NCBI RefSeq assembly: GCF_007990635.1
Contig: NZ_AP019846.1
Span: 1,488,001-1,552,000, forward strand
Source: Leptotrichia hongkongensis
GTDB lineage: Bacteria; Fusobacteriota; Fusobacteriia; Fusobacteriales; Leptotrichiaceae
Length of the DNA stretch: 64,000 nt
Direction of reading: 5' to 3'
A program made the position numbers and the translations under genes. Numbering within the stretch: the stretch's first letter is position 1; every line of letters starts with the position of its first letter. Of the stretch, positions 6,596 to 63,398 are shown piece after piece. The notes under the pieces were generated by a model. That model was not told where the DNA came from, searched no databases, and saw only the letters and a program-made list of their open reading frames with translations.

Positions 6596-7771
6596 TTATA
6601 TTTCTAAATTATACAGCTTATAATTTCCAAGAATTTGTAAATAATTAGATTTTTCTCTCATTTCATCAAGTGCCATTTTTACTTTCTCACTAGACATATT
6701 TCCTTCAAAATCAATGTAAAAATAATATTCCCAAGGTTTACTTACTCTTGGCCGTGACTTCAGATTTACCATATTTAGACCATATTTATAAAAAATCTGC
6801 AACAATCCAATTAATGCTCCCGACTCATTATTTGCACTCGTTACTATACTTATTTTATCACTTCCATCAATTACAATATCCTCATTTGAAATGATAAAAA
6901 ATCTCGTATAGTTTTCTTCTTCATTATTAATATTTTCCTTTAGTAATTCCAAGTTGTATACTTCTTTTGTTTTCATATTTGCGATACAGGCATTTTCTTT
7001 TTCACCTTTTGATGCGATGTATTTTCCGCTAATTGCAGTATTTGTCATTCGATTAAGATGCCACTCATGCTTTGATAAAAATTCTGAACATTGCATAAAA
7101 GCCTGTTCATGAGAATAAATATTTTTTATATCTTCAATTTTACTTCCTTTTACACCAAGCAAGTTGTGTGAAATCTTATGTCTGACTTCTCCAATTATGT
7201 GGATATTTTTTGTATTTATCAAGTCAATACTGTCTCGCACTTCTCCAACGATAGAATTTTCTATCGGCAATATTGCAATATCAATTTGATTAGTATGTAC
7301 AGCCTCCACCAAATCTTTATGTGAATTAAAATGAAAAATATTTTTATTCTCTTCAATATTATAAATATTTGAATTTTTATTATTCTTAAGCAAGTTCATT
7401 AGTACTTCGTACGCATAGGAGCCAGGCACTCCCGTATATCCTAGTTTTTTATTTTCCAATTCCAAATCATTCACATATCTAGTTGAAATACCAATTTTAA
7501 ACTTCTGGTATTCCTTACTGGAATCCATAATATCCTTTAAAATCAACTCAATATAATGATTCAGTTCCTTATTTTTAACTCTTTCTAAATTTTTCTGAAT
7601 AACTTCCTTTTCTCGTTTTTCATCAAAAATCTTCTTTCCAGTTAATTTTTTAAACTGTGCCACTTCCTGTACAATATGCAGTCTTTCTTCCAGCAGTTTC
7701 ACCAGTTGGCTATCCAATCTATCAATTTTTTCCCGAATTTCTTCCAAATCCAAATTTTTATTTATATCCAT
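6596..7771 (-). CDS. pheA: Bifunctional chorismate mutase / prephenate dehydratase (P-protein)
   Basis: Makes phenylpyruvate from chorismate in two steps. Residues 6-90 are a helical AroQ-type chorismate mutase domain (EIREKIDRLDSQLVKLLEER, with the conserved Arg and Lys). From about 109 (KLGYTGVPGSYAYEV) the prephenate dehydratase domain follows, including the catalytic Thr-Arg-Phe in NYTRFFII. The C-terminal 80 residues are an ACT domain whose KSRP motif is the usual site of phenylalanine feedback inhibition. Length 391 is normal. It is the first gene of the aromatic cluster, with a TATAAT box about 40 bases upstream. No leader peptide, T-box or other attenuator is visible. Confidence 0.95.
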   Translation of the reverse strand: MDINKNLDLEEIREKIDRLDSQLVKLLEERLHIVQEVAQFKKLTGKKIFDEKREKEVIQKNLERVKNKELNHYIELILKDIMDSSKEYQKFKIGISTRYVNDLELENKKLGYTGVPGSYAYEVLMNLLKNNKNSNIYNIEENKNIFHFNSHKDLVEAVHTNQIDIAILPIENSIVGEVRDSIDLINTKNIHIIGEVRHKISHNLLGVKGSKIEDIKNIYSHEQAFMQCSEFLSKHEWHLNRMTNTAISGKYIASKGEKENACIANMKTKEVYNLELLKENINNEEENYTRFFIISNEDIVIDGSDKISIVTSANNESGALIGLLQIFYKYGLNMVNLKSRPRVSKPWEYYFYIDFEGNMSSEKVKMALDEMREKSNYLQILGNYKLYNLEI

Positions 7772-7811
7772 TCATCTTCCCTTTTTTCTTTTTATAAAAA
7801 CGAACTGTTTT

Positions 7812-7817
7812 ATTATA
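7812..7817 (-). promoter_or_regulatory. -10 box upstream of pheA
   Basis: A perfect TATAAT on the minus strand about 40 bases ahead of the pheA ATG. No good -35 hexamer is at the usual distance, so the promoter is only partly supported. It would drive the pheA-to-HAD cluster. Confidence 0.5.
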
Positions 7818-7997
7818 ACATAGCTTTTTAATTTTTCTTTAGAGTATATTAGAAATTAGATTATTTATTGCAATCTTCTTTCTCAATTTAATTATTTTTT
7901 TAAATATAAATTGTATAATTCACTTAAAGTTTGAATAATAATATGCAAAAATCAATAGACTCTCTAATTTTCTGCTCTATTTTAAACCAAATTATTA

Positions 7998-8101
7998 TAT
8001 ACTCGAACTATTTAAAATTGAACTGATAGAAATTATATAATTTAGGGTTTGAGTAAAATAGTCATAATTTTTGAGTTCTTTTTTAAACTAGTTTTACTAT
8101 A
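7998..8101 (+). repeat. Dispersed MITE-like element, family A copy 1
   Basis: About 104 bp. Its inner 91 bp (8011-8101) differ at only four positions from copy 2 and at four from copy 3. The two ends form a 28-bp imperfect inverted repeat: it starts TATACTCGAAC and its complement starts TATAGTAAAAC, with TTTAAAAT and GAACT shared further in. The core contains the palindrome AAATTATATAATTT. No start-to-stop frame of any length is conserved, so it is non-coding. The rest of the 7818-8176 gap shows no gene. Confidence 0.8.
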
Positions 8102-8176
8102 CATAATATTTTTTACTCATTTTACTTATTATAAATTATACTAAAATCAGAAGGAAAAAGCAAGAATAGTTAATAC

Positions 8177-8214
8177 AAAAAGGGAATTCCTCTAATTAAA
8201 AAGCAATTCCCTTT
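8177..8214 (-). terminator. Rho-independent terminator of glgP
   Basis: Perfect 10-bp stem AAAGGGAATT (8179-8188) with AATTCCCTTT (8205-8214), followed on the minus strand by a T-rich tail. It lies about 115 bases past the glgP stop, with family A copy 2 between gene and terminator. Confidence 0.85.
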
Positions 8215-8220
8215 ATAATA

Positions 8221-8325
8221 TATTCTCAAACCCATTTAAAATTGAACTAATAAAAATTATATAATTTAGAGTTTGAGTAAAATAGTCATAATTTTTGAGT
8301 TCTATTTTAAACTAGTTTTACTATA
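8221..8325 (+). repeat. Dispersed MITE-like element, family A copy 2
   Basis: About 105 bp; the inner 91 bp at 8235-8325 match copy 1 with four differences and sit in the same orientation about 135 bp from it. The 3-prime end stops three bases from the glgP stop codon, so the element is transcribed as part of the glgP 3-prime untranslated region and could form a hairpin there. The inner stem is TTTAAAATTGAACT (8235-8248) against AGTTCTATTTTAAA near 8299-8312. Confidence 0.82.
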
Positions 8326-8328
8326 AAA

Positions 8329-10794
8329 TTAATCTTCTATATAGTCATGAACTTCAACTGGCTCAATATTCCAAATTTCTTTTGCATATTCGGCAATTGT
8401 TCTGTCTGAACTGAATTTACCAGCGTTTGCAATATTTTTAAGAGCTTTTCTAGTCCATTCCCTTTTATCTTTGAAGGCATTTTGAAGCCTGTCTTGAGCT
8501 TCTCTGTATGATGCGAAATCTTTTAATAGGAAATATACATCTGGACGAGAGCCATCTACTCCGTATAATAGTGAATTTTGTAATTCTCTGAAGATTCCTG
8601 TATGGTTATCGTCATAAGTTCCATCACCTAACTGATCCACAACTTTTTTAAGTCCTTCTACGCTGTTATATTCGTCAAATGGATTATATCCTCCATGTGC
8701 CTGATAATTTTCCACTTCCTGTGCAGAAAGTCCAAAGATAAATGCATTGTCAAATCCAACTTCTTCAACAATTTCAACATTTGCTCCATCCATTGTTCCG
8801 ATAGTTAATGCACCGTTTAGCATAAATTTCATATTACCAGTTCCAGATGCTTCTTTACTTGCTGTAGAAATTTGTTCTGATACATCTGCTGATGGGAATA
8901 TTTTTTCTGCAAGTGAAACTCTGTAGTTTTCAAGGAATACAACTTTGATTTTTCCGTTAATGTCGCTGTCGTTATTTACTTTTTCTGCAACGGCATTGAT
9001 TAATTTGATAATTCCTTTTGCACGTCTATATCCAGCAGCTGATTTTGCTCCAAAAATAAATGTTCTTGGTTCAATATCTAAATATGGATTTTCTTTTAAT
9101 CTATTATACAAGTCCATAATATGAAGTACATTTAAAAGCTGTCTTTTGTACTCGTGCAATCTCTTAACTTGAATATCAAAGATAGAATGAGGATTTACTT
9201 CAATTCCTGTAGTATCTTTTATATATTTAGCCAATCTTTCCTTATTATGTAGCTTAATTTCAGCAATTCTGTTTAAAACATTGTCATCATCCAAGTATTG
9301 CTCCAATTTTTTAAGTTCATATAAGTCTGTAATCCACTTGTCTCCAATTAATTCTGTAATTAATGCAGCTAATTCTGGATTTGCTTTTAATAGCCATCTT
9401 CTTTGAGTAATTCCATTTGTTTTGTTTAGGAATTTTTCAGGATACAATTCGTTCCATTCTTTTAATTCACTGTTTTTAAGAATTTCTGTATGCAATGCCG
9501 CAACTCCGTTTACTTTGTGCGATCCTACGATGGCAAGCCATGCCATTCTAACTTGTCCATTTCCAATAATTGACATTTTGTTGATTCTTTCCCAATCTCC
9601 TGGATATTTTTGCTGTAACTCTGCAACAAATCTTCTATTGATTTCCTCGATAATTTGATAAATTCTTGGAAGTAATGGCTGAAATAGTGAAATATCCCAT
9701 TTTTCTAATGCTTCTGATAAAATTGTATGGTTTGTGTATGCAAATACATTTTTACAAATATTCCAAGATTCATCCCATCCTAATTTTTCTTTATCCAAGA
9801 AAATTCTCATTAATTCAGGAATTGCAACAACTGGATGTGTATCATTTAGCTGAATTGCGACTTTTTCTGCAAATTTTGAAAAATCATTTCCAAAAACTGA
9901 TTTGTATCTTCTGATAATATCCTGTAATGAAGCTGATGTAAAGAAGAACTGCTGTTTTAATCTTAATTGTTTTCCATCTTTTTCAGTATCATTTGGATAC
10001 AATACTCTTGAAATATCTTCAGCTTGAACTGCTTTTGCAGAAGCCTGTAAATAAGTTTGATCATTGAATAATTTTAAGTCAAATCCTTCAGGTGATCTTG
10101 CTTCCCATAATCTCAATGTATTTACAGTATCATTTCCATAACCAATAACTGGCACATCATAAGGTACGGCGTGAACTGTTTCGGTATTTACTCGTTTAAA
10201 GTATTCTTTCCCAAATTCATCACGATGAACTTCAATTTGTCCGCCAAATTTTACTTCAAATACTCTGTCCATTCTTTTTATTGACCAAGGATCTCCGTAT
10301 TTTGTCCAGTCATCTGGATATTCCATTTGGAACCCATTTTCGATTTTTTGCTCAAACATTCCATATTTGTATCTAAGTCCATATCCATGTCCTGGCAATG
10401 CCAATGTGGCAAGTGAATCAAGAAAACATGCTGCAAGTCTTCCAAGTCCTCCATTTCCAAGTCCTGCATCCATCTCATGATCTTCAATTTTGTTAATATC
10501 TACGCCTAATTCATTCAATGTTTCCTTGATAATGTCATTAATTTGCAAATTAATCAGATTATTTCCCATAAATCTTCCCATTAGGAATTCTGCTGAAAAA
10601 TAGTACGTTTGCTTTACCTGTTTTTTAGCATAAGTCTTTTTAGTATTGTACCATTTTTCCATTGCGTAATCCAAAGCTACTTTTGAAATTGCATTATATA
10701 ACTCAAATTCATGAGCTTCTTCAAGAGTTTTTCCATATTGCCTTCTCAGTTCCCTAAGAATACTGTCCTTTAATCCAGATTTGTCAATTTCCAT
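8329..10794 (-). CDS. glgP: Glycogen/starch (alpha-glucan) phosphorylase
   Basis: Releases glucose-1-phosphate from the ends of glycogen or maltodextrin by phosphorolysis, using pyridoxal phosphate. About 821 residues from the ATG at 10794, which has a perfect TAGGAGG ribosome site; the frame opens nine codons earlier without one. The cofactor site EASGTGNMKFMLNGA, followed by GTMDGANVEI, lies at about residues 660-690; its lysine forms the Schiff base. NDTHP, LHEYKRQ and GNGGLGRLAACF are other family signatures. Both domains are complete. No other glycogen gene adjoins it. It has its own promoter at 10825-10853 and a terminator at 8177-8214. Confidence 0.96.
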   Translation of the reverse strand: MEIDKSGLKDSILRELRRQYGKTLEEAHEFELYNAISKVALDYAMEKWYNTKKTYAKKQVKQTYYFSAEFLMGRFMGNNLINLQINDIIKETLNELGVDINKIEDHEMDAGLGNGGLGRLAACFLDSLATLALPGHGYGLRYKYGMFEQKIENGFQMEYPDDWTKYGDPWSIKRMDRVFEVKFGGQIEVHRDEFGKEYFKRVNTETVHAVPYDVPVIGYGNDTVNTLRLWEARSPEGFDLKLFNDQTYLQASAKAVQAEDISRVLYPNDTEKDGKQLRLKQQFFFTSASLQDIIRRYKSVFGNDFSKFAEKVAIQLNDTHPVVAIPELMRIFLDKEKLGWDESWNICKNVFAYTNHTILSEALEKWDISLFQPLLPRIYQIIEEINRRFVAELQQKYPGDWERINKMSIIGNGQVRMAWLAIVGSHKVNGVAALHTEILKNSELKEWNELYPEKFLNKTNGITQRRWLLKANPELAALITELIGDKWITDLYELKKLEQYLDDDNVLNRIAEIKLHNKERLAKYIKDTTGIEVNPHSIFDIQVKRLHEYKRQLLNVLHIMDLYNRLKENPYLDIEPRTFIFGAKSAAGYRRAKGIIKLINAVAEKVNNDSDINGKIKVVFLENYRVSLAEKIFPSADVSEQISTASKEASGTGNMKFMLNGALTIGTMDGANVEIVEEVGFDNAFIFGLSAQEVENYQAHGGYNPFDEYNSVEGLKKVVDQLGDGTYDDNHTGIFRELQNSLLYGVDGSRPDVYFLLKDFASYREAQDRLQNAFKDKREWTRKALKNIANAGKFSSDRTIAEYAKEIWNIEPVEVHDYIED

Positions 10795-10824
10795 ATTTCC
10801 TCCTAAATATTTTATTTTCACTTC

Positions 10825-19695: not shown

Positions 19696-19781
19696 GCGAG
19701 TGTGGTGGAATTGGTAGACACGCTATCTTGAGGGGGTAGTGGCTCTTAGCCGTATGGGTTCAAGTCCCATCATTCGCACCA
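19696..19781 (+). tRNA. tRNA-Leu (anticodon GAG)
   Basis: Cloverleaf of 86 bases with encoded CCA. The acceptor stem is GCGAGTG/CATTCGC (one G-T pair). The anticodon stem CTATC/GGTAG encloses loop TTGAGGG, so the anticodon is GAG, reading CUC and CUU. A long variable arm (GTGGCTCTTAGCCGT) marks a class II tRNA, as expected for leucine. The T-loop GGTTCAAGTCC is canonical. Confidence 0.95.
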
Positions 19782-19812
19782 TTATTTAATTTTAGACATC
19801 CAATTTTATTTA

Positions 19813-19897
19813 GCGAGCGTGATGGAATTGGTAGACATGCTATTTTCAGAGGGTAGTGGCAGTAGCCGTACGGGTTCGACTCCCGTTGCTCGCACCA
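19813..19897 (+). tRNA. tRNA-Leu (anticodon CAG)
   Basis: Second class II tRNA, 85 bases with encoded CCA, 31 bases after the first and probably on the same transcript. The acceptor is GCGAGCG/TGCTCGC. The anticodon loop TTCAGAG gives CAG, reading CUG, a rare codon in this AT-rich genome. The T-arm CGGGTTCGACTCCCG is intact. Confidence 0.93.
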
Positions 19898-39200: not shown

Positions 39201-39652
39201 AAATTATCTGAATATGAATCGTAGTTTTTAATATAACTATCTGCCAAATTCTCAAAATATTTTAAAAACACTTGCAATTATTCCAAAAATATTGTTATTT
39301 TTAGTTTCCGAATTATTTTCAAAATCCTTTTTACAAATTCATCTGAAAAACCTAAAAATTTATATATCTTATATTTTAAAGGAAAATTTGAAAATTGATA
39401 ACTAAGTTCATCAGGAAAATTATTATACATATACTCAGAATACTTCAATAATGTCTTCCCTGCCTCACTTTCCAAAAAGTCATCCCTTTTCATAAATTCT
39501 TTCATCTCAAAATTATTAATATATCGTAAATTCCTTTTATAAACATTATTAATCTTTTCTGTCTTTCCGTTTAGGAAGTCTACTATTTCATTGTAAACAG
39601 ACTTTATTTCTATTTTATCTGTAAGACTTTTTATTACTTCATTTTTAGTCAT
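36255..39652 (-). pseudogene. Decayed DUF4132 (MolR-like) gene, one nonsense mutation and about three frameshifts
   Basis: One ancestral gene of about 1,130 codons now in four pieces. Fragment 1 starts at the ATG at 39652 with a strong AGGAGG and stops at 39278; the same frame stays open afterwards (LKYFENLADSYIKNYDSY) to about 39203. Fragment 2 (39200-38796) and fragment 3 (about 38800-38066) lie in other frames. Fragment 4 (38126-36255, 623 codons) holds the DUF4132 core (LNDILVPDFNFEMD, ALFTQRKWKAEKW, EREYWKMYF). Fragments 3 and 4 overlap: one more T in the T-run near 38128 would join them as NNKILDGILHEHEKE. DUF4132 proteins are large and of unknown function, often with WGR or kinase-like partners. 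Gene-sized coding density across all joints argues for recent decay or sequencing error. Confidence 0.8.
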
Positions 39653-39830: not shown

Positions 39831-39934
39831 TATACTGAACCCATTTAAAATTAAACTGATAGAAATTATATAATTTAGGGTTTGAGTAAAATAGTCATAG
39901 TTTTTGAGTTCTGTTTTAAACTATTTTTACTATA
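39831..39934 (+). repeat. Dispersed MITE-like element, family A copy 3
   Basis: 104 bp; the inner 91 bp (39844-39934) differ from copy 1 at four positions despite lying 31 kb away. Inner stem TTTAAAATTAAACT (39844-39857) against AGTTCTGTTTTAAA (39907-39920). It sits in the gap between the DUF4132 start and the autotransporter terminator, which otherwise shows only AT-rich DNA. Confidence 0.82.
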
Positions 39935-40119: not shown

Positions 40120-43100
40120 TTAGTAGATTGCTCTAAATCCGATTCCACCTCTCACATTTTCACCTTTTGTATCATAACCTGCGTTTATTGTTACACCAAA
40201 TCTTGTATTTTCAATTCCAAGGTTCAAATCAGCTTTTCCGTTTCCACGTCTGTCATCCTTTTCACCTCTTATATTAAACCAGTCAGCAGTTGTATAACGA
40301 ACTCTTGCTTTATTGCTCACATCTCCAACCTTTCCTAGTTCATTTTCATAAGCAATTCCCAACTTAGCAATAAATGTTGTTTTTACTGCCATTGGCTGTT
40401 TATATTTGAATTCCACTCCAACTTCAGGTTTTATAGAATAATAGTCATTTGCTTTTACTTCTAAACGCATTTGCCCAGTATCCTCTTTTATTCCATCAAA
40501 TTTTCCATATTCAAATTTTAAACTTCCATAAGGTGAGATACTTGTTCTTTCACTTGTTCTAATGTTTTTTCTAAGTTCATTTTTTAATCCAAATCCATAT
40601 GAACGGTACTCAGATTTTGCTTCAAATATATCATCAACAACAAGGAATTTTCTCTTCATTTCACCAGTTCCTACAAATCCTTCTGCTGAAATAGTCCAAT
40701 TCAAGCTATTGTTATGATCTTTTCCTATTGGCATTGATTTAAATACACCTGCTTTTACAATACTCTGATCTTCTTTAGATCTACCTATATCGCTAAAGTC
40801 AAATCTATTTCTTACTGCCCCTGCATACCATCCTGTCGATTCTCCAAGTTTTACAGTTTCATTTTCATTCAAGTATGCAAATCCATAGGCTTTATTTTTA
40901 TAATCAATAATTCCCGCTGTATCTGTCTTATATTCACCTTGCATTCCAAAGGCTTTTATTTTATTTGAATTTTTAGACTTCGTATCCCATTCATTTCTTA
41001 AATATGTAAATTCTTTATTCAGCAAGTTACCTGTTTCAAAAATTCTTTGTTGAACATTTGCATACTGATGTCCCATCATTTCATCAATTGCTTGAGCCAA
41101 TAACGCTTCTTCACTATTTCCAATTGTATTCAATTTATTAAATATTTCTTTTTCTCTTGAATCTAAGCTATTAACGTCATATCTTTGTTCCAATCCATCA
41201 GTAAAGTTGTATTCATTTGTTGTTTTATCTACAAAGGCTGTATAAGGAATCTTTGTCATAAGTACACGTGTAATCTGCTGTGTAGATGGGTCAACTTCAG
41301 GCGTTGCCATCCAAGTTAGTGAAGCAGAATACGGAGTAAAGTTAAATATTCCAGAATTTATCTGATTTAAGAACGGCTGTAATATTTGTTTTCCAATAAT
41401 CACATTTTTAGAGTTTGTAAGTACTGAAAATTCTGTTCCAATTAATAAATCACTGTTAATTCCAAGAGAATTTGCTCCATTTATGTTAATTGGACGTGTT
41501 CTTCCCAATGTATCCACATATACTCCAAAGTTTGAGAAAGCATAGTTTGTGTAAGGCGTAGTGTAATCAATTGTCTGAACTTGGCTGTCATCTAGTGTTA
41601 CACCATTTCTCTGAATTGCAAGCCGTCCATTTGGCAATTGAACAATTCCCACTCCTCCAACAGTTTTACTTGGATCTGTCGGTGCATAGTAATCTTTTGC
41701 TCCATTTCCAGAAGTAATGCTTCCCGCTCCAGAATTTAATGCTGGTAATACATTTCCAGGAGTTGCATTAGATGCTATTGGCAAATCTCCAGATACACCT
41801 TGAGAATTTACATCATATCTTACTCCATAAGTTTTATAACCATTTATGTTGATTTCTCCATAATTTTTAATTATTGATTTATTATTTGCCGTACCTTTTA
41901 TTAACACTCCATAACTGTTGTCTGCATCAATATTTATTGTTCCATAATTTTCCAAAGTACTTCCATTTAATACAGCAACTCCGACAATACCTTGAACATT
42001 ATCATTTCCACGATAAGAACCAGTTGTAGTGATATTTCCAGTATTTACAAATTTTGCTCCATTATTTACAAATACTCCCATCATTGTCTGAATTTTATCA
42101 GAAGATGTTGCACTTGAAGCATCCAAGTATATATTTCCAGAGTTTCTTAATGTCGTTCCTCTGTCATCTCCGTACATTCCAATACTTAAATGTCCTGAAA
42201 CATAAATATCTCTTTCATTTGAAATATTTGCTCCTCCTACAGCTGCCATACCGATTCCATAAACAATGTTATCTGGGTCAGATTTATCAGTTTTTCCGAT
42301 TTTGATTATTCCTCTATTTATAGCATTAGATGCTCCTGTTACAAGAATTCCTTGATTTCCGATTCCTTGTGATAGATCAATTATTCCATTATTTACAATA
42401 TTTGCTCCATCTTTTCCATAGATTGCAATAATTTTTTCATTTGTTCCAGATGTAATTGTTGCATTATTTGTTACTGATGATGCTCCTTCTGTATAAATGA
42501 AAGTCGACTCTTTTCCTAAAGTTACATTTGATGAAGCAGAATTTGAATAAACATTTGTTCTGCTAATACCTGGATTTGCTAAAATTACCCCGTAAGACTT
42601 GTCTCCAACAGTAAAGCTTGATGTCGTATCGTTAATTGAAACTCCATTTGTTCCATAAACTCCAACAGGTTCACTATTAGCATCTGTCGCAATATGATTT
42701 GCAACATTTATTGTTCCACCTAAGTTAACATTTCCACCTTTTTTATACACACCGATAGCCTTGTCTGCAACATTGATTACAGAACTTGCTGTTGTTTCGA
42801 CATTTCCATTTTCACTAAGTGAATAAACTCCAAATGAAGCCTCTCCAACATTTATTGTTCCACTATTTTTGATATTAATTGTTGATCCATTTTGTGCATA
42901 AATTCCGACAGTAGAGTCGTTTTTAACAGCGGTTGCAGTTTTATCTACATTTATTGTTCCGCTATTTTCAAATGTCTGATCCGATGTTCCTTCCAGATAC
43001 GCTGCAATTGAACGTTTTCCAGTAATATCAATATTTCCACTATTTAAAATTGATTTTGCCACACCTGATTTATTTTGTGAGAAAATTCCAATTGAATCAT

Positions 43101-46100
43101 CACCAGAGAACTTCATATCCGCTTTATTCGTAACATTTGAATTTATTGAAACAATTCCTTTTGCCTTGTCAGATGTACCAGTTATTTTCTTACCATCTAT
43201 CGTAGCATTTGAATTATCCACATAAATTCCTGTAGAGCCATTATTTAGAGTCATATTATTCCATCCACCAAAAGAAGATGTTCCTGTCATATAAATTCCA
43301 GTTCCTTTTGAAGATACAATAATGTCATTATTATTCATTTGTGCTTTACTATCCACAATATATAACATCGGCTCCAAAGAAGTTGTCAATGTTCCAGTAT
43401 TATTATAATTTAACACTGCATTATTTTCCAAGTATGCCAAACTTCCGTTATTTGCAAAATTGTAATTCCCTCCAGTTACAGTCAATGTAGAATCATTTCC
43501 ATATAGTGCAAATCCTTTATTTCCAACTGTTATATCTCCAGAAGTAGTTAAATTTGTTTTATTTTTTACAAATATTCCAACTGAAGTAGATTCAACACTT
43601 CCACTAGAATCAAATGTAGAATCTCCAATTGTTATATTTCCACTATTTACAACTGTCGCATTTGAAACATTCAAAGTTTCCGGTGCAATATAAATTCCTG
43701 CTGACCCTTTTCCTAAAGTGATGTTTCCTTCATTTACAACATCTATCACTTTACTGCTTGCAGCGGTATTTTTAGCATAAATTCCAACAGATTTATCTTT
43801 ACCAGTTATTTCTCCCTTATTTTCAACTTTATCAAATCCGATTGAGTAAATAGCAGAAGATTCATCTCCAACTGTTATTTTAGAACCAGCTGTTGTTGTG
43901 ATTATACCTTTATTTTCAGTTCCTGCTGGTGCATTGCTATAAACTGGTGTTGAATTTTTATAAATTCCATAAATTCCAGTTGATTTATTTCCTACGAGAA
44001 TATCTTGTGAATTAAGTCCTCTTGATGAATCAAGATACATTGCCGTACTTGTCTCAGCATTTGACAAGTCTAATTTTCCTTTATTTTCAGCATCATACCC
44101 AGCAGTTCCAACCCAAGTTAATGCAGGATTGCTATTTCCATCTGCCATAAGTCCAATAATATTCTTAGTTGCTGATTTTGCCTCAACTGTAACTCCTGTT
44201 TGTAAAATAGCCTCTCCATTTATAACGTGAGAAAGTATATTTCCTGTATCTAATGCATTTCCAAGTGCTACAGTTAGATTTTTTGAAGTTATAGAACTTC
44301 CTTCAGTAACTCTGGTTCTTTCTACAGAGTATCCGTTAGTAACTAATGTTCCACCATTGTCTACAATGTATCCTCCTTTTTGAGCAAAAATACCTACTCC
44401 ATCTCCACCAAATTCAATTTTTGCACCACTTTCAAAATTAACTTTCGCTTTGCTAGTAACTATTGCTCCAACTCCATTTGCTCCGTTTAGCTTAATATCT
44501 GCACCGTTATCAATTGTTACTGTTGAAGCTTTGGTTCCATCTCCACCATTTCCAATATAAATACCAGTTCCAGCTGTTGTGTTATCTCCTATATTCATAG
44601 TCCCTGTATATTTAATATGGCTGCTATTTTCAGCAAACAATCCAACTCCATTTGCTCCTGTAGTTATTGATGTCGATATTGTTTTAGGGCTTCCAGATGT
44701 TCCTTGTCCATCAGTATAGATTCCAATTGCATAAAAATCATTTGAGCCACCTAATACAGAGCTTCCTACTTTTACCCCCTGGTTATAACCTGAAATATCA
44801 GCAGTTGCTCCCTTCATAAGAAGTCCAATTATTCCATTACCAGTATTAGAACCCGTCGTGTAGTCTAATTTTGATGTGCTTGAATTTAACGTTCCTCCAT
44901 CAAGATAAACTCCAACTCCATATCCGCTTATATTTCCAATATTTGCTCCATTAATCTTTCCTGTATCAGAAGCACTTGTTCCTTTAATATAATACGCAAC
45001 TCTATTTTGATTTTTTGTACCTAAATTTATTGTTCCTGTAGTTGTATCAGTTACTGTTGCCTCGTCTTTTAGATAAACGGCTACTGATGAATCCGCATCA
45101 TCATTTAATGCTATTTTTCCTACTTTTGTTATGGTAGATTTTGGTGTATAGATTCCAACTGTGCTTTTTTGTTTTAGATTTATAGTTCCTTCATTTTTTA
45201 TAGTTGAATCAGCCAAATTACCATTATTTTTTGTAAACATTCCTGTAGAGTTTTCAGATTCTACATTAATCACACCATCTGCTGTATTTGTCAAGCTGAT
45301 TTTCTTCCCAGTGGCACTTGCCGAACCAAACATTCCAACTGAATTTTTAGAAGATGATGTTAAATTTATAGTTCCTGAATTTTCAGCTGTTGCATCATCT
45401 TTTGAGAATATTCCTGTTGATTTTTCACCAGTCAATTTAATAGTAGCATTCTTTGCATTTATAACTGCTGTCCCATCGTCTACACCATACATTCCAATTA
45501 CTGATTCTGCTGTTCCTATTATTTCTTTGTTGTTTGTTATTTTAGCCTTATCAGTCGCAAGCATTCCTGTCGCTTTTTTACCTTTTACAGTAACAGTTCC
45601 TTCATTTATTCCTTCAGTAGCATTCGATGTGGCAGTATTTTTACCAGTAGCATAAATTCCTATCGCACTCTCTCCAGCTGATGATATTTCAATTGTAGCA
45701 CCATTATGATTTTTTATTTCTGAACCATTTTTCCCATACATTCCAACTGATTCTTTGTTGTTTACTGCTATTTTGTTCTTATTATTTGTTACTGAATTAT
45801 CCGAAAGCATTCCAACTGATTTTTCAGAATTTACTTCAATTTGACCTTTATTATCCGCCGTTAAATTTCCTCTGTTGTTGGTAGCATTTGTAGAAAATAT
45901 TCCAACTGATTCTTTCGTGCTGACATCTATTTTATTTTTATTTTCTATAACCAATGTTTTAGTTGCAGCTGCTTCAAGTTCTCCATAAATTCCTGCACTT
46001 TTTACTTGCCCAGCTGTATTTTTTAAAGTAATTATTCCACTATTTTCTATTGTATTATTTTCTGTCGCATTTTTTGTAAATTTACCATAAATTCCGGCTG

Positions 46101-49100
46101 AAGCTCCTTTATGCACATCAATAGTGCCTGCTGATGCATTTACTGCATTACTGTCTTCAAGATAAATTCCTGCTGATTCTTCTTCTTTAATCTCTATTTT
46201 TTTATTATTAGTTACTTTTGATCCAGATTTACCATAAATTCCTGCTGATTTTTTGTCATTCATAATAATTGTTCCACTATTATCAACTGTGCTTTTTACA
46301 GCTGAAATTCCGATTGATTCTTCTGAATTTACTGTTATTACTCCATCAGAACTATTAATAACTTCTATTTTATCTACATTATTATTACTATCATTTAAAG
46401 CAAATATTCCAACTGATTGCGAACTTCCATTAGCAATATTTATTTCTTTATTATTTTGTAATGTCAATTTTTTAGGTGCCCCGCTTACAGATTCACCATA
46501 TATTCCAACATTCTTGATAACGTTTGTCAGATTTATTATTCCTTCATTTAAAATAGAATAGTCTTTTTGGGATGAGTTTGTTATTTTTCCATACATTGCT
46601 GCTGAACCGCTAGTCGCTCCAGCAGATCCTGTCAACGTTATTGTTCCATCAGCTGTATTTGTTGCGTTTGAATCTGAAGCATACATTCCTGCTGAATTTT
46701 CATGTAAAACATTTATTGTTTTTTCGTTAGTTATGTTAGAGTCGTTACTCCCATACATTCCTGCTGAATTTTCTTTTTTTACATTTATTATATTTTTATT
46801 TTTTCCTGTAGCTTTATCAACAAAAATTCCAACTGTACTTCTAACGTCCAAATCAATTTTTCCATTAGAAGCTTCATTTACTACAATTCCAGCATTATCT
46901 CCAGCATTATTTTTCAAATACATTGCAGCTGATTCTTCCTGACCAACAATTATATCCTTTTCATTTTGCAATGTTGTAGTTCCTGTTGCTGTACTCTTAA
47001 TCTCTACATACATCCCTGCTGATGCTGTTTTACCAGTTCCTTTTAACTCAATTTTTCCAGTATTTGCGATAGTTCTTGAAACAGCATCTGAAATTTTTGC
47101 AAAAATTCCTGCTGATTTATTACTTTCAATACTTATTGTTCCTGCATTTGAAGGCGATGAGTCTTCTGCATAGATTCCTGCTGACTTATCTCCAGTTATT
47201 GTAATTTTTCCAGTTGTAGCATCATTTGAAATAGTCGCTCCATCTAAACCTAGCATTCCAGCAGAAGCTCCACCATTCATTTCTATATTCCCTTTATTTG
47301 TAGCACTTCCTTTATTTGCCAAAATTCCAACTGAAGCCGAAGCAGCTGTTGTATCAGTAAGTAAAATATCTCCGCTATTTTCGATTTCGGATTCTTTACC
47401 ATAAATTCCAACTGATTTTTTCCCTTGTAATTTTATTTCAGAACCTGCGAAATTAGTTACTTTTGCTTTTTCCGACATTATCCCTATCGCATCTGAAGCC
47501 AAAGTATCTGAAGTTATTTTTTTCTTATTTTCAATTACAACATCAGCACTCTTACCATAGATACCAATAGAATTGCCTATATGAATATTTATGTTTCCAG
47601 AATTTTCTACGTTCTGATTACCTTCTGCATAAATTCCAACATTTTGAGTTTCAGTAGAACTTGCTACTCCAACTTCTATAGTTCCTTTATTTTTAACATT
47701 TTTTGCAGATGTAGATGTTGAATAAATTCCTGCTGAACTTCCTTTTTTAGAAATTATTTTCCCAGTTGTTTCATTTGTAACATCACTGTTATCTGCATAA
47801 ATTCCTGCTGATCCTGTTTCTTCTGTAGTTATATTTCCAGAATTTTCAATTGTTGAATTTGTTATTCCATAAACTCCTGCCGATCCTGTTCCAGAAGTTG
47901 TTATTTCTCCACCAGAAGCATTACTTACTGTACTGCTATTTGACAGTATCCCGACTGATGAAGTTCCAGAAGTTGTTATTTTCCCAGTACCACTATTTGC
48001 CAACGTTGAACTTTCTTTTCCATAAATTGCGATTGAACTGTTCTTTGCAGTTGTTATTATATTATTATTTGTCACTTTTGAAGCATTGGAATAAATTCCT
48101 ATAGCTCCATCTTTTCCTGCTAATACAAGTTTTCCATCATTTGTTACAACAGCTCCATTTAATCCTGAAATTGTAGTTTTAAATTCAGAAGTCAAGATTT
48201 TTCCTGATTTAATATTAACTTTCCCAGCATCAGATACTAAAAATTGTGCAGAATCATCAATATTAGAAAATTTCGTACTGTCAGCCGTAATATTTCCATC
48301 AATATTTATAGTCGTATTTTTCGCACCATAAAATACAGCTGAATTTTCACCCATACTTGAAACTGTTAAATTTTGTAATGTTGTGTTTGTTATATCTACA
48401 GTATCATCTGCTGTATTCCCAGTATTTCCAAAGTAAGCGAACACAGATTTTTTACCAATTGAAGTACTAAGATTTGTCATTATAAAGGCTGTTCTAAAAT
48501 CACTAGCCTTGGATGAATAAAGTCCAACTGTTCTTTCTCCCAAATTTAATACTGCATTTCCCTGAAAAGTAGTACTTGTACTAGATCCATCTGAATATAC
48601 TCCGATTCCAGTGCTAGTTCCAGAATCTCCAACTGTAACTGTACCTTCAACAGTTCCAGTAGAGCCACTAGTAAATATTGCAATTCCACCATTACTAGAT
48701 TTTATTTCTCCATTACTTGCATTTGTAAAGGTTCCATTTTCTGAATATAACCCTACTTTTCCACCTGCTTCAACGGATACAACTCCAGCGTTTGTAAATG
48801 TTCCTGTATTTTGTACAACAGCATGATATGCAGCATTTGAAATAGTTGCTCCATTTTTATTTGTTGCAACAGATCCATTTGAAAGATATAATCCAATAGA
48901 ATCAGTACCAGTTGATGTTACTTCTATATTTTTTTCATTCTCAAATGTCGAATTATTTAAAATTACACCATATACTTTATTTCCTGTAACCGTTATTGTT
49001 CCTTGGTTTCCTGTTGTTCCTGTTGTTCCATTAAAGTACATTCCAATATTTTCATTTGCTCCATTTACTTTAATATTACCTTCATTAACAAACTTTGCTG

Positions 49101-51036
49101 AACTTGAATAAACTCCAATATTTTTACCGTCTATACTATTAATAGTAATTGTACCTTCATTTTTCATATTTGTTGCCAAAGCATTCCCAACTCTTATTCC
49201 CATACTTCCATTAGAGCCATTTTCAATATCAATATTTGCATTTTTAGTATTTTTTACATCAGAATCTACTTGTGAGTAAAGTCCAAATGAATTTTTAGCA
49301 GCTATTGTAATTGTTCCATTATTAATAGCTCCACCTTGAATTTTACCAAGAACTGTCATACCACCCGAATCGTTTCCAGTAACATTAATTTTTCCATTAT
49401 TCACAAAACTTGAATCAGGTCCTAAAGCATTTGTTGTTTTTGAAACAACCATACCGTGACTGTTGTCTCCGTTAATATTTACATTTCCATTATTAATTGC
49501 AATGGTACTTATATTTACGCCGCTCTTAAAATCACTAGTTGCAAATCCTGCTGAAATATTTCCACTTAAACTAATTTCCCCTTCATTTCTCAAGGTATGT
49601 TTATTCGTAGTACTGCTACCTGTCCCTTCATCTGTAAATAAAAGAGCTACTTGCAATGATTTATTTCCGCTTATAAGCCCTGTCGAACCATTTATACCAG
49701 TAACTTGCGGATTATTCCATGTATCTGGCTGTACTTCAATCCCTGCTACTTCCATTACATCTAAATATATTTTTCCTTTATTTTCAAATGAAAACGAAGG
49801 ATTATTTCGTCCTCCTTTACTTGAAGGAAGACCTGGATCTAATGTTATAGCCCTTTGCTTAGTTATATCTACATGCATTTCTGTATTTTCGCCTGAATAA
49901 AATGAACCGTTATTAGTCATATATTCTCCAATTGCTTTATGGTGGCCAACAGGTGCTTGACTTAATGTGTAACTAGAATTAAGCAAATTCGTATTAGCAT
50001 TCATTGTATTATCAGCAGTTATACTATTCCCATACGAATCTAATCGTGGAATACTAAAAACTATAGGATTCGCTGTTGGATTTGGTGGTGTAACACTTGG
50101 AGCAGTAGGTTTAGTAACACTAATTGCACTAACTTCTGAAATATTTGGAGGAGTAATTGTCAATGTGTTTACAGTTGGACTTGGTGCCGTTACATTCATA
50201 CTCAGTGCTGGCGGTGTTATATTTACGGCTATTGTTGGTGCCGACAAATTCATACTAATGCTTGGAGCCGTTACTGTAGGCGGTGTAGCTGGCTCTTGTG
50301 GATTCGGCACTTCAATCGTAACAGGATTTAATGTAGGAAGTATGATTGTCGGTGCTGTTATTGGCGAAGTTACACTCAAATTAATTGCTGGACGTACTAC
50401 AGCTCTTGGCATATCAATTTGTGGATTTATTGTGATTTCTTCTTTTGAAATAGATTTTGGACGTACATTTGCCATTATCTGAATTTCCACTTCAGGTTCT
50501 TGAACGTGTAACAATGATGCTAATCCGTAAGATTGTGAACCTACTGTAGAAGTGCTAATTGATGGTGTTATAAAATTTTTTCTTCTATTAGACAAAATTC
50601 CAGTATCTCCCCAGTCACCTCTAGTAAATATGCCATTAAACGGATATTTAGCAGCCTTATCTCCTCTTCCTTTATAAGCTCCGTTACTACTTGATGTAAA
50701 AGTATTGGCTCCAAATTGCCATGATGCCCATTTTGATTTTACAACCTGATCTCCTTGTTCCATTAATTGAACTAATTCCAAGTTCAAGTCTTCTACAGCT
50801 TCTTCGTTTGCTTTTTTCTTTTTCTTTATTGCAACCCTTGTTTTTTCAGCTGACATTACCAATTCCTTGTTCATACGCTCATAAAGCATATCTGAAGATG
50901 TATTTATCCCAATTGAAAATGTTATCATCCCTGTTATTAAGTACGAGAACAGCAATGATTCTGTATACTTTACATTTTTTGCCCTTTTAGCAAAAGCCTT
51001 CAAGTCTTTTTTTGCCTGTTTTAAATTGTTACTCAT
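40120..51036 (-). CDS. Giant type V autotransporter adhesin, 3,638 aa
   Basis: A very large surface protein secreted by the type Va route. Residues 1-60 form the fusobacterial autotransporter N-terminal region: a basic stretch, then the hydrophobic helix SLLFSYLITGMITFSIGI (about 28-45), acting as signal. A Lys/Glu coiled segment (50-95) and a Pro/Thr-rich segment (about 205-330, many APTI/TPP repeats) follow. The passenger, about 350 to 3,150, is built of dozens of short beta-helix repeats in which N(S/E)G-x-I and (S/A)VGI(Y/F)(G/A/S) alternate. The last 300 residues are the beta-barrel (from about KAFGMQGEYKTD), ending GGIGFRAIY with a terminal aromatic. It is comparable in layout to fusobacterial adhesins such as RadD or Fap2. 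It is monocistronic, with AAAAGGAG upstream. Ligand unknown. Confidence 0.93.
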   Translation of the reverse strand: MSNNLKQAKKDLKAFAKRAKNVKYTESLLFSYLITGMITFSIGINTSSDMLYERMNKELVMSAEKTRVAIKKKKKANEEAVEDLNLELVQLMEQGDQVVKSKWASWQFGANTFTSSSNGAYKGRGDKAAKYPFNGIFTRGDWGDTGILSNRRKNFITPSISTSTVGSQSYGLASLLHVQEPEVEIQIMANVRPKSISKEEITINPQIDMPRAVVRPAINLSVTSPITAPTIILPTLNPVTIEVPNPQEPATPPTVTAPSISMNLSAPTIAVNITPPALSMNVTAPSPTVNTLTITPPNISEVSAISVTKPTAPSVTPPNPTANPIVFSIPRLDSYGNSITADNTMNANTNLLNSSYTLSQAPVGHHKAIGEYMTNNGSFYSGENTEMHVDITKQRAITLDPGLPSSKGGRNNPSFSFENKGKIYLDVMEVAGIEVQPDTWNNPQVTGINGSTGLISGNKSLQVALLFTDEGTGSSTTNKHTLRNEGEISLSGNISAGFATSDFKSGVNISTIAINNGNVNINGDNSHGMVVSKTTNALGPDSSFVNNGKINVTGNDSGGMTVLGKIQGGAINNGTITIAAKNSFGLYSQVDSDVKNTKNANIDIENGSNGSMGIRVGNALATNMKNEGTITINSIDGKNIGVYSSSAKFVNEGNIKVNGANENIGMYFNGTTGTTGNQGTITVTGNKVYGVILNNSTFENEKNIEVTSTGTDSIGLYLSNGSVATNKNGATISNAAYHAVVQNTGTFTNAGVVSVEAGGKVGLYSENGTFTNASNGEIKSSNGGIAIFTSGSTGTVEGTVTVGDSGTSTGIGVYSDGSSTSTTFQGNAVLNLGERTVGLYSSKASDFRTAFIMTNLSTSIGKKSVFAYFGNTGNTADDTVDITNTTLQNLTVSSMGENSAVFYGAKNTTINIDGNITADSTKFSNIDDSAQFLVSDAGKVNIKSGKILTSEFKTTISGLNGAVVTNDGKLVLAGKDGAIGIYSNASKVTNNNIITTAKNSSIAIYGKESSTLANSGTGKITTSGTSSVGILSNSSTVSNASGGEITTSGTGSAGVYGITNSTIENSGNITTEETGSAGIYADNSDVTNETTGKIISKKGSSAGIYSTSTSAKNVKNKGTIEVGVASSTETQNVGIYAEGNQNVENSGNINIHIGNSIGIYGKSADVVIENKKKITSDTLASDAIGIMSEKAKVTNFAGSEIKLQGKKSVGIYGKESEIENSGDILLTDTTAASASVGILANKGSATNKGNIEMNGGASAGMLGLDGATISNDATTGKITITGDKSAGIYAEDSSPSNAGTISIESNKSAGIFAKISDAVSRTIANTGKIELKGTGKTASAGMYVEIKSTATGTTTLQNEKDIIVGQEESAAMYLKNNAGDNAGIVVNEASNGKIDLDVRSTVGIFVDKATGKNKNIINVKKENSAGMYGSNDSNITNEKTINVLHENSAGMYASDSNATNTADGTITLTGSAGATSGSAAMYGKITNSSQKDYSILNEGIINLTNVIKNVGIYGESVSGAPKKLTLQNNKEINIANGSSQSVGIFALNDSNNNVDKIEVINSSDGVITVNSEESIGISAVKSTVDNSGTIIMNDKKSAGIYGKSGSKVTNNKKIEIKEEESAGIYLEDSNAVNASAGTIDVHKGASAGIYGKFTKNATENNTIENSGIITLKNTAGQVKSAGIYGELEAAATKTLVIENKNKIDVSTKESVGIFSTNATNNRGNLTADNKGQIEVNSEKSVGMLSDNSVTNNKNKIAVNNKESVGMYGKNGSEIKNHNGATIEISSAGESAIGIYATGKNTATSNATEGINEGTVTVKGKKATGMLATDKAKITNNKEIIGTAESVIGMYGVDDGTAVINAKNATIKLTGEKSTGIFSKDDATAENSGTINLTSSSKNSVGMFGSASATGKKISLTNTADGVINVESENSTGMFTKNNGNLADSTIKNEGTINLKQKSTVGIYTPKSTITKVGKIALNDDADSSVAVYLKDEATVTDTTTGTINLGTKNQNRVAYYIKGTSASDTGKINGANIGNISGYGVGVYLDGGTLNSSTSKLDYTTGSNTGNGIIGLLMKGATADISGYNQGVKVGSSVLGGSNDFYAIGIYTDGQGTSGSPKTISTSITTGANGVGLFAENSSHIKYTGTMNIGDNTTAGTGIYIGNGGDGTKASTVTIDNGADIKLNGANGVGAIVTSKAKVNFESGAKIEFGGDGVGIFAQKGGYIVDNGGTLVTNGYSVERTRVTEGSSITSKNLTVALGNALDTGNILSHVINGEAILQTGVTVEAKSATKNIIGLMADGNSNPALTWVGTAGYDAENKGKLDLSNAETSTAMYLDSSRGLNSQDILVGNKSTGIYGIYKNSTPVYSNAPAGTENKGIITTTAGSKITVGDESSAIYSIGFDKVENKGEITGKDKSVGIYAKNTAASSKVIDVVNEGNITLGKGSAGIYIAPETLNVSNATVVNSGNITIGDSTFDSSGSVESTSVGIFVKNKTNLTTSGDITVGNKGFALYGNDSTLTVTGGNYNFANNGSLAYLENNAVLNYNNTGTLTTSLEPMLYIVDSKAQMNNNDIIVSSKGTGIYMTGTSSFGGWNNMTLNNGSTGIYVDNSNATIDGKKITGTSDKAKGIVSINSNVTNKADMKFSGDDSIGIFSQNKSGVAKSILNSGNIDITGKRSIAAYLEGTSDQTFENSGTINVDKTATAVKNDSTVGIYAQNGSTINIKNSGTINVGEASFGVYSLSENGNVETTASSVINVADKAIGVYKKGGNVNLGGTINVANHIATDANSEPVGVYGTNGVSINDTTSSFTVGDKSYGVILANPGISRTNVYSNSASSNVTLGKESTFIYTEGASSVTNNATITSGTNEKIIAIYGKDGANIVNNGIIDLSQGIGNQGILVTGASNAINRGIIKIGKTDKSDPDNIVYGIGMAAVGGANISNERDIYVSGHLSIGMYGDDRGTTLRNSGNIYLDASSATSSDKIQTMMGVFVNNGAKFVNTGNITTTGSYRGNDNVQGIVGVAVLNGSTLENYGTINIDADNSYGVLIKGTANNKSIIKNYGEININGYKTYGVRYDVNSQGVSGDLPIASNATPGNVLPALNSGAGSITSGNGAKDYYAPTDPSKTVGGVGIVQLPNGRLAIQRNGVTLDDSQVQTIDYTTPYTNYAFSNFGVYVDTLGRTRPININGANSLGINSDLLIGTEFSVLTNSKNVIIGKQILQPFLNQINSGIFNFTPYSASLTWMATPEVDPSTQQITRVLMTKIPYTAFVDKTTNEYNFTDGLEQRYDVNSLDSREKEIFNKLNTIGNSEEALLAQAIDEMMGHQYANVQQRIFETGNLLNKEFTYLRNEWDTKSKNSNKIKAFGMQGEYKTDTAGIIDYKNKAYGFAYLNENETVKLGESTGWYAGAVRNRFDFSDIGRSKEDQSIVKAGVFKSMPIGKDHNNSLNWTISAEGFVGTGEMKRKFLVVDDIFEAKSEYRSYGFGLKNELRKNIRTSERTSISPYGSLKFEYGKFDGIKEDTGQMRLEVKANDYYSIKPEVGVEFKYKQPMAVKTTFIAKLGIAYENELGKVGDVSNKARVRYTTADWFNIRGEKDDRRGNGKADLNLGIENTRFGVTINAGYDTKGENVRGGIGFRAIY

Positions 51037-51380: not shown

Positions 51381-51474
51381 TATACTCGAACCCATAAATT
51401 ATTTATATAAATATAAGGCTTGAGTACTCTAATTTATTAACTAAAATTTTATCTTTAAATAACTTTACTATATA
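51381..51474 (+). repeat. Diverged family A element, copy 4
   Basis: It begins with the exact outer end TATACTCGAACCCA (51381-51394), keeps GGCTTGAGTA in the core and ends ACTTTACTATA, but the inner stem has decayed and it is about ten bases shorter. It lies in the 700-bp gap between the autotransporter and gpmI, where I see no gene; the promoter of the autotransporter should also be there. Confidence 0.55.
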
Positions 51475-55562: not shown

Positions 55563-55667
55563 TGTGATAAAACGTCTTAAAATTAAACTCAAACGCCATA
55601 ACTATTTTACTAACACCTTAAATTTACATAACTTTTAATAGTTTCGTTTTAAATGGATTTGAGTATA
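55563..55667 (-). repeat. Diverged family A element, copy 5 (inverted)
   Basis: On the minus strand this aligns along its whole length with copies 1-3 (for example ACTATTTTACT, TTTAATAGTTT and AAATGGATTTGAGTATA read on the plus strand), with many substitutions. It ends eight bases from the tetR stop codon, so it forms part of the tetR 3-prime region. Confidence 0.6.
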
Positions 55668-55675
55668 TTTTAGAG

Positions 55676-56278
55676 TTACCTTGCTATACAAACTGATTTT
55701 ATTATCTCCTCTATTCTCTCTTCCCAGCTTTCAGAATACTTTATATCATTTGTAATCATTATTGTCGTTAATCCTTGTACCAACGCCCACATTGCTATAA
55801 TTTTATCTTGCATAGCCTGATTTGGCACTCCCATTTTTTCAAGTATTTTTATCGCCTCAATTTTTAATATGCTAAAAGCTTTTTCATTATTATTTTCTAT
55901 TTTTGAAAACTTTGAGAATAAATCTATTTTCATATTTTTTCTTGAAATCATAAAATGATAGTATCTATGATTCTCACAAAAAAACATAACGTACGTTTTT
56001 CCTAATTTTACCAACAAATCCTCTTGATTTTCATATTTTTTCCTCGTTCTATCAAGTTTCTCCGCCAATATTCCCCATATATAATCACTCATTGCGTAAA
56101 GCAAATCACTTTTTTTCTTAAAATATGTATACGGTGCCGCATTACTTACTCCGCACATTTTAGCTACTTTTCTTAAAGATAATTTTTCTTCTCCTTCTTC
56201 ATTTATCACCTCTATCCCTTTTTCAATCAATTCTTCTCGTAAATTTCCATGATGGTAACTTTTTTTAGTTTTTTCCAT
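55676..56278 (-). CDS. TetR-family transcriptional regulator
   Basis: A 200-residue repressor-type protein. Residues 5-60 are the TetR helix-turn-helix: SYHHGNLREELIEKGIEVINEEG, then LSLRKVAKMCGVSNAAPYTYFKKKSDLLYAM; the HHGNLR start is typical of the TetR_C_33/WHG subgroup. The C-terminal helices would bind an unknown ligand. A dyad-symmetric site overlaps its own promoter (56305-56349), pointing to autoregulation. The two flavodoxin-fold genes downstream are the likely regulon. An insertion sequence sits just upstream of the promoter. Confidence 0.9.
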   Translation of the reverse strand: MEKTKKSYHHGNLREELIEKGIEVINEEGEEKLSLRKVAKMCGVSNAAPYTYFKKKSDLLYAMSDYIWGILAEKLDRTRKKYENQEDLLVKLGKTYVMFFCENHRYYHFMISRKNMKIDLFSKFSKIENNNEKAFSILKIEAIKILEKMGVPNQAMQDKIIAMWALVQGLTTIMITNDIKYSESWEERIEEIIKSVCIAR

Positions 56279-62895: not shown

Positions 62896-63081
62896 TAGAA
62901 AAACTTTTTAATTTTTTATTATAAAAAAAATTTTTTTTTAATCTTTTTCAAATTATATTTGAACTCTTTTATCTATCAAAATAATACGATTTCCTGTTTA
63001 AATAATGAAATTATTACAAACTTTTCTAATAAAGGGTATATTTAAAATAATTAAAATATAATTTTCATTTTTCAATCAGAT

Positions 63082-63398
63082 TCTAGTATAAATAACCCGT
63101 TGGAGCATTTTTCTGTGCTGACAAAACTGTCTGAGTATAGCGAGTTTTTTGTCAGTGCAGAAAAATGTCGTAAACTAGCCATAGGTTATTGCGTAACAAT
63201 CTTGCCAAATATTTTGATTATCAGGATAAACCTCTACTGCAAGATAAGGTTTTGCGGCAATGAGCAATCCTACGAGAATAAAAAGAAAAAACATAATAGT
63301 ATGAAAAAATATTTATTAATCAAAATATATAAAAATAATTTACTTGAATAACTATAAATTAACCTATTATAAAAATTTTAAATCAAATTTAGTATAAA
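63082..63398 (+). repeat. Structured dispersed element, family B copy 4
   Basis: The fullest copy. A 21-bp hairpin, arms 63106-63126 and 63147-63167 (CATTTTTCTGTGCTGACAAAA against TTTTGTCAGTGCAGAAAAATG, two G-T pairs), encloses a 20-base loop containing CTGTCTGAGTATAGCGAGTT. Then come TGTCGTAAACTAGCCATAGGT, a spacer, CTGCAAGATAAGGTTTTGCGG, CAATGAGCAATCCTA and the AAAAAGAAAAAACATA tail. Both ends carry TAGTATAAA. An 83-codon frame (63100-63351) crosses it. The rest of the 62823-63450 gap is AT-rich without a gene. Confidence 0.78.

Follow-up and report, generated by a model that had tools for sequence, protein, structure and literature searches.

The small repeat RUP of Streptococcus pneumoniae is described, in the available parts of two sources, as an A+T-rich sequence of about 107 bp with about 110 mostly intergenic copies, insertion into TA and ends like those of an IS630-family element, IS630-Spn1 (PMC2229807, PMC3049150). 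The former source, a 2007 review, singles out RUP among bacterial small repeats as the only one whose ends match an IS (PMC2229807). A 2024 review reports that pneumococcal BOX, RUP and SPRITE are also found inserted into one another (PMC10969869); a term search of this review for IS630, Leptotrichia and fusobacteria revealed none of the three. Riboswitch candidates in Leptotrichia are named in a 2024 noncoding-RNA survey in which Leptotrichia buccalis was included, and its available sections hold no description of the repeat reported here (PMC11109978).

The repeat analysed here, family A, is a MITE about 105 bp long whose 28-bp terminal inverted repeats are imperfect; the enzyme that moves it in trans is very probably the transposase of an IS630-family element of Leptotrichia (IS of 939-940 bp). 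It is like RUP in its length and number of copies, in its TA target and in having IS630-like ends. This likeness is one of architecture only; the organism and the IS are different, and the Leptotrichia IS is a remnant in this genome and full-length in relatives. The partner is like other IS630-family ISs in its HTH_Tnp_IS630 and DDE_3 domains, its two reading frames and its TA-bounded ends, whereas the 105-bp element carries no transposase gene and, by eye, shares with the IS no sequence beyond the terminal repeats. Correia/NEMIS, BOX, SPRITE and ERIC are likewise short dispersed repeats; their ends and partners are other than those of the Leptotrichia element, in which, in contrast to them, no strong RNA structure was found. 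A search of the open-access literature revealed no paper describing a repeat of this type in Leptotrichia. Within the limits of these searches, the genus-wide IS630-type MITE family is new as a family and ordinary as a kind. The finding connects a repeat of high copy number in a little-studied genus with a likely enzyme, the IS and the MITE form a ready pair for studying mobilisation in trans, and the insertion sites are markers that differ between Leptotrichia species.

The window, the whole stretch of 64,000 nucleotides that was analysed, corresponds to positions 1488001-1552000 of contig C1 (2,261,073 bp) in a genome of 2.28 Mb and contains five copies (Table 1). The first-pass annotation had placed three similar copies and two diverged ones here. 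The positions of the similar copies were confirmed, and so were the roughly four differences in their inner parts: by eye on the alignment, copies 2 and 3 are each 4 columns off copy 1 when the first 13 variable bases are excluded. The copies at 51.38 and 55.56 kb are indeed diverged, the former with a different middle and the latter in reverse orientation.

Table 1. Coordinates of family A copies in the window, of empty and filled sites of copies elsewhere on contig C1, and of family B copies.
Feature	Position	Strand	Details
Copy 1	window 7998..8101	+	subfamily A1, 104 bp, TATA at both ends, 97% to A1 consensus
Copy 2	window 8221..8325	+	subfamily A1, 105 bp, 94% to A1 consensus
Copy 3	window 39831..39934	+	subfamily A1, 104 bp, 96% to A1 consensus
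Copy 4	window 51381..51472	+	end-sharing variant, 92 bp, both ends kept, different middle (TATACTCGAACCCAT ... CTTTACTATA)
Copy 5	window 55563..55667	-	old, diverged; right end departed from consensus
Empty site	C1 753461		G008 100%, G006 99%, G014 95%
Empty site	C1 1613137		G006, G007, G014, G005 and G012 at 90-98%
Empty site	C1 770387		G007 95%, G008 92%, G014 92%
Empty site	C1 1556853		G006 97%, G007 96%
Empty site	C1 1829306		G007 91%
Empty site	C1 1852679		G008 91%
Filled orthologue	C1 1577381		G006 and G008
Filled orthologue	C1 1556853		G008
Filled orthologue	C1 1829306		G006 and G008
Family B copy	C1 224472-224589		L050
Family B copy	C1 888413-888530		L063
Family B copy	C1 2182584-2182702		
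Family B copy	window about 62980-63110		

Copy 1 sits between a glycogen phosphorylase gene (PF00343) and a chorismate mutase/prephenate dehydratase gene. Copy 2, 119 bp away, ends 3 bp from the stop codon of the former gene (ORF 8329-10821, minus strand). The neighbour of copy 5 is a TetR-type regulator gene (ORF 55676-56278, minus strand), whose stop codon is 8 bp from the end of the copy; both of these stop-codon distances agree with the earlier annotation. Copy 3 lies in an intergenic gap between two minus-strand ORFs: the start side of ORF 39278-39652 is 178 bp away, the stop of ORF 40120-51036 185 bp.

A search of the whole genome with copy 1, in which 40 of 146 candidates were scored, revealed at least 41 strong matches (E below 1e-26), and a 20-base left-end pattern with up to 3 mismatches gave 80 hits in the genome versus 0 for the reversed control, more than chance can account for. 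Extraction of paired ends 85-120 bp apart from about 295 kb of fetched stretches, including the window, yielded 81 unique elements, and reversed patterns gave 0 paired hits in these stretches. We kept 74 elements with lengths of 88-110 bp and end mismatches summing to at most 7; the seven dropped comprised four elements 118-119 bp long and three, window copy 4 included, whose ends were weak, and copy 5 is likewise outside the 74. The lengths of the retained copies were 105 bp (n=46), 106 bp (n=13), 107 bp (n=10), 104 bp (n=4) and 96 bp (n=1). The unit of 104 bp given in the first pass therefore holds for copies 1 and 3 but not as the typical size, which is usually 105-107 bp. TA was found at both start and end in 63/74 copies and TATA in 59/74, with 41 copies in plus and 33 in minus orientation. 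A sequence-only profile built from 13 sequences gave at least 100 matches at E 1e-4 or less in this genome, profile counts being lower bounds (150 of 5988 first-look candidates scored here). The genome-wide search suggested earlier has thus revealed a dispersed family.

Average-linkage clustering of the 74 copies at 10% divergence resolved groups of 33 (A1), 21 and 15 members together with five singletons, and mean divergence within the three subfamilies was 4-6%. The A1 consensus measures 105 bp and is matched exactly by four copies; an identical twin is present for nine of the 74, including three that belong to a segmental duplication. The latter, at C1:2072489, 1992180 and 1621189, have common flanks and represent a larger duplicated segment, not separate insertions. 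Two copies of different subfamilies lie 17 bp apart in the same orientation (C1:2014595-2014699 and 2014717-2014821).

These data bear on the case that the first-pass annotation had set against its own proposal, namely that one local duplication plus a single transfer accounts for the three similar copies. Such a history would suit the spacing of copies 1 and 2, and the segmental duplication at 1621189, 1992180 and 2072489 is an instance of copying together with flanks; however, the flanks of copies 1 and 2 differ, 74-100 copies are spread over the chromosome, and empty sites exist. The genome-wide search contradicts this case, which is almost certainly wrong.

The empty sites come from a search of nine relatives in which 30 of the 74 copies, all of subfamily A1, were represented by their 70-base flanks joined with one TA. 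Among the matches listed, an uninterrupted empty site with a single TA was found in at least one relative for at least six of the 30 copies, the best being identical (100%) over 142 bases with its single TA. The junctions of all six sites were checked base by base: the empty site has a single TA and the insert is flanked by TA at either side, as expected for a target-site duplication. For at least three of the 30 copies, among the matches listed, a filled orthologue was detected with the element, 95-99% identical to the consensus, between both flanks, and these filled sites too were verified base by base. The other sites, including those of the three window copies tested, gave no clean empty or filled site among the matches listed. 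The presence of both empty and filled orthologues implies insertions of different ages, some common to species and some not.

Three copies (151372, 1862120 and 2172345) sit within copies of another repeat, family B. After removal of the element and one TA, the flanks of 151372 and 2172345 are clearly continuous with other B copies; those of 1862120 align without gaps to one B copy, whereas alignment to others opens a gap of about 10 bases close to the junction. Short length, the lack of a transposase gene, many dispersed copies, terminal inverted repeats and a TA duplication with an empty site are the features on which we class family A as a MITE. Its repeated mobilisation, proposed in the first pass, is borne out by genome-wide copy number, several subfamilies, one-TA empty sites, nested copies and a matching IS630. 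Family B itself is a repeat of about 118 bp with the left end TATACTAAACCCCATTTAAATAACGAA and a right end near ...TCTAGTATA, and each of the nine relatives searched contained matches to it. At the left end it is similar to family A, and it may have been moved by a related IS630.

The ends of the A1 consensus match each other as terminal inverted repeats at 20/28 bases, in line with the imperfect 28-bp ends and the 21/28 reported before for a composite. A Pfam DDE_3 search of the genome gave one match (1797523-1797798), with one TGA inside, and a repeat-type end, TATAGTAAAACCTATTTAAAACTGAACT read inwards, lies 60 bases beyond this remnant. The remnant aligns to positions 306-940 of the IS at 94% with 5 gap positions and therefore lacks the left third. 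The statement that the window holds no transposase with matching ends is consistent with this search, which matched only a remnant elsewhere; the full-length element with matching ends whose existence had been suspected is the IS630-family IS of the relatives.

With the remnant fragment as query, IS matches were detected in 8/33 genomes of the bacterial family, this genome included. Eight copies of relatives, from five genomes, are bounded by recognisable ends, seven of them 939-940 bp long and one, with an internal deletion, 642 bp. All bounded copies start with TATAGT(G/A)AAAC and their right ends are closely similar. Two more copies in G008 have both ends and are shorter and decayed, and the remaining matches among the eight genomes are partial or have no recognised second end. 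An open DDE frame of 191-211 aa is present in 5/7 full-length copies and broken in two. One copy (L091) shows a 117-aa HTH frame overlapped, one base back, by an open DDE frame of 211 aa; the two would be joined by a -1 frameshift at an A-run. Both HTH_Tnp_IS630 (PF01710) and DDE_3 (PF13358) scored over cut-off, and the NCBIfam IS630 transposase model NF033545 did so for the DDE frame only.

Comparison of six MITE ends (three subfamilies, two sides) with the right end of the IS showed 23-25 identical positions out of 28, against shuffled means of 11-12; at most 1 of 20,000 shuffles reached these scores. For the left end of the IS the values were 18-23/28, which at most about 0.3% of shuffles reached. 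The MITE ends are thus nearer to the right IS end than to the left, which counts against the proposed partnership. The assignment to IS630 mobilisation draws on these ends, common to an IS630-family IS, and on the IS630-type transposase that the partner carries. The transposase would bind the MITE ends, which are nearly the same as those of the IS, and move the MITE in trans into TA, which would then stand on both sides of the insert. The near-identical A1 copies would go back to a period in which this genome still carried an active IS.

A different TA-specific transposase could be the main mobiliser, the IS630 found here being only related to the real partner. Among the IS copies seen, none has an exact equivalent of the MITE left end TATACTCRAAC, which differs from both their ends, and several MITE-rich genomes are without the IS. 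However, the search for transposases with a DDE_3 domain left one trace in the genome, and the right end of this remnant is the very one matched by the MITE ends at 23-25/28. We regard such a second enzyme as distinctly unlikely and retain the IS630-family IS as the probable partner.

The MITE family is present in all 13 Leptotrichia genomes searched. Next to the profile matches in this genome, 49-72 were counted in nine others, 2 in G011, 6 in G009 and 8 in G013; of 20 other genomes of the bacterial family, G002 gave 25 matches, G023 one weak match and 18 none. In four MITE-rich genomes, G007, G012, G014 and G016, the remnant-fragment query gave no IS match; judged by these searches, their enzyme may have been lost or may be a different relative. 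Conversely, the IS is present without a MITE match in G017 and with two MITEs in G011. MITE-rich genomes without the IS and IS genomes with few or no MITEs indicate that the two are not tightly coupled today. It is conceivable, if rather doubtful, that the MITE family outlives its IS630 in many Leptotrichia species and bursts when the IS re-enters by transfer, with some copies becoming gene 3' ends. G017 belongs to the same family and a different genus, and its IS630 copy is about 96% identical to most Leptotrichia copies; this identity, in a genome with no MITE match, suggests transfer of the IS.

Gene context was analysed with TA sites as control and with genes called by a simple ORF rule; 10/74 copies had no called gene on one or both sides within the fetched stretch and were omitted from the gap classes, one-sided distances being used where present. 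A stop codon was found within 20 bp in 11/77 stop-side distances versus 528/6535 (8%) at control TA sites (P = 0.057). Convergent gaps (18/64 versus 1207/6037 control TA sites) and start-side distances of 50 bp or less (5/59 versus 1100/6199) did not differ significantly from the controls; the P values of the three location biases were 0.057, 0.084 and 0.116. None of the 74 elements lies wholly inside an open frame (0/74), which says little, since insertion itself would break the frame. The small non-significant bias to stop codons fits insertions that are tolerated where they are least harmful. The earlier suggestion that copies become part of mRNA 3' ends fits the stop adjacency of copies 2 and 5, but for the family as a whole the positions relative to stop codons, which the first pass had proposed to list, give no more than a hint of such a role.

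Single sites show how copies meet frames. At 753461 the frame of the empty site in G008 ends ...FFPTKYNKNFKIFVE; in this genome (753461-753565) the frame enters the element and ends ...FFPTKYTRTHLKLN, so that the element provides the new end and stop codon of a small protein. For the insertion at 770387, the stop codon of a 228-aa open frame in G008 includes the target TA, and the matching frame in this genome is already broken upstream. On the minus strand at about 8180-8215 an inverted repeat followed by Ts was seen by eye, terminator-like in appearance, with copy 2 situated between it and the stop codon of the phosphorylase; a terminator scan of 7700-8500 with loops up to 8 allowed returned no terminator-like site. 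Copy 2 is probably transcribed in the 3' untranslated part of the phosphorylase mRNA, before the native terminator. The phosphorylase 3' region was located in 12/12 relatives, and a paired-end copy was detected in 0/12 of the fetched regions with 5 mismatches allowed per end; in G014 a diverged copy is present, its right end still recognisable, 155 bp from the phosphorylase stop. By eye, the same neighbouring gene is kept beside the phosphorylase in only 4/12 relatives, and the absence of the copy is most telling in those four.

A host-serving element, a structured RNA or transcription signal such as a terminator or 3'-end stabiliser that spread by its usefulness and owes only its origin to transposition, could likewise adjoin stop codons as copies 2 and 5 do and give the stop-side excess. 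It would also account for the pairing of the left 11 bases inside TA with an internal inverted copy at 10/11 positions (P 0.0012 or less versus base shuffles for three consensus sequences). This pairing is the one feature that points towards a structured RNA, against the other fold tests. The right end has no significant ungapped internal inverted copy (P 0.2-0.8), seven sequences fold with energies close to those of their shuffles (z -0.02 to -1.82), and in the consensus fold of 13 sequences only 1/25 predicted pairs is changed on both sides. With the Rfam scan of the window matching tRNAs only, we rejected a structured RNA with a conserved, covarying fold. The scan around copies 1 and 2 without a terminator-like site, the use of both orientations, the non-significant location biases and the lineage specificity of several sites speak further against a host function, which we consider very improbable as the reason for the spread; the IS630-mobilised MITE remains our reading. 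A promoter-like TTAAAA-18-TATAAT in copies 1 and 2 was also dismissed: this class of site occurs 7 times in the region versus a shuffle mean of 5.6, and the second hexamer is changed in other subfamilies.

Two other features of the window may be mentioned. ORF 40120-51036 encodes 3638 aa with many internal repeats and gives the impression of an autotransporter-like protein by its length and repeat pattern. The Rfam tRNA matches represent two similar tRNA genes at 19696-19894, whose starts are 117 bp apart.
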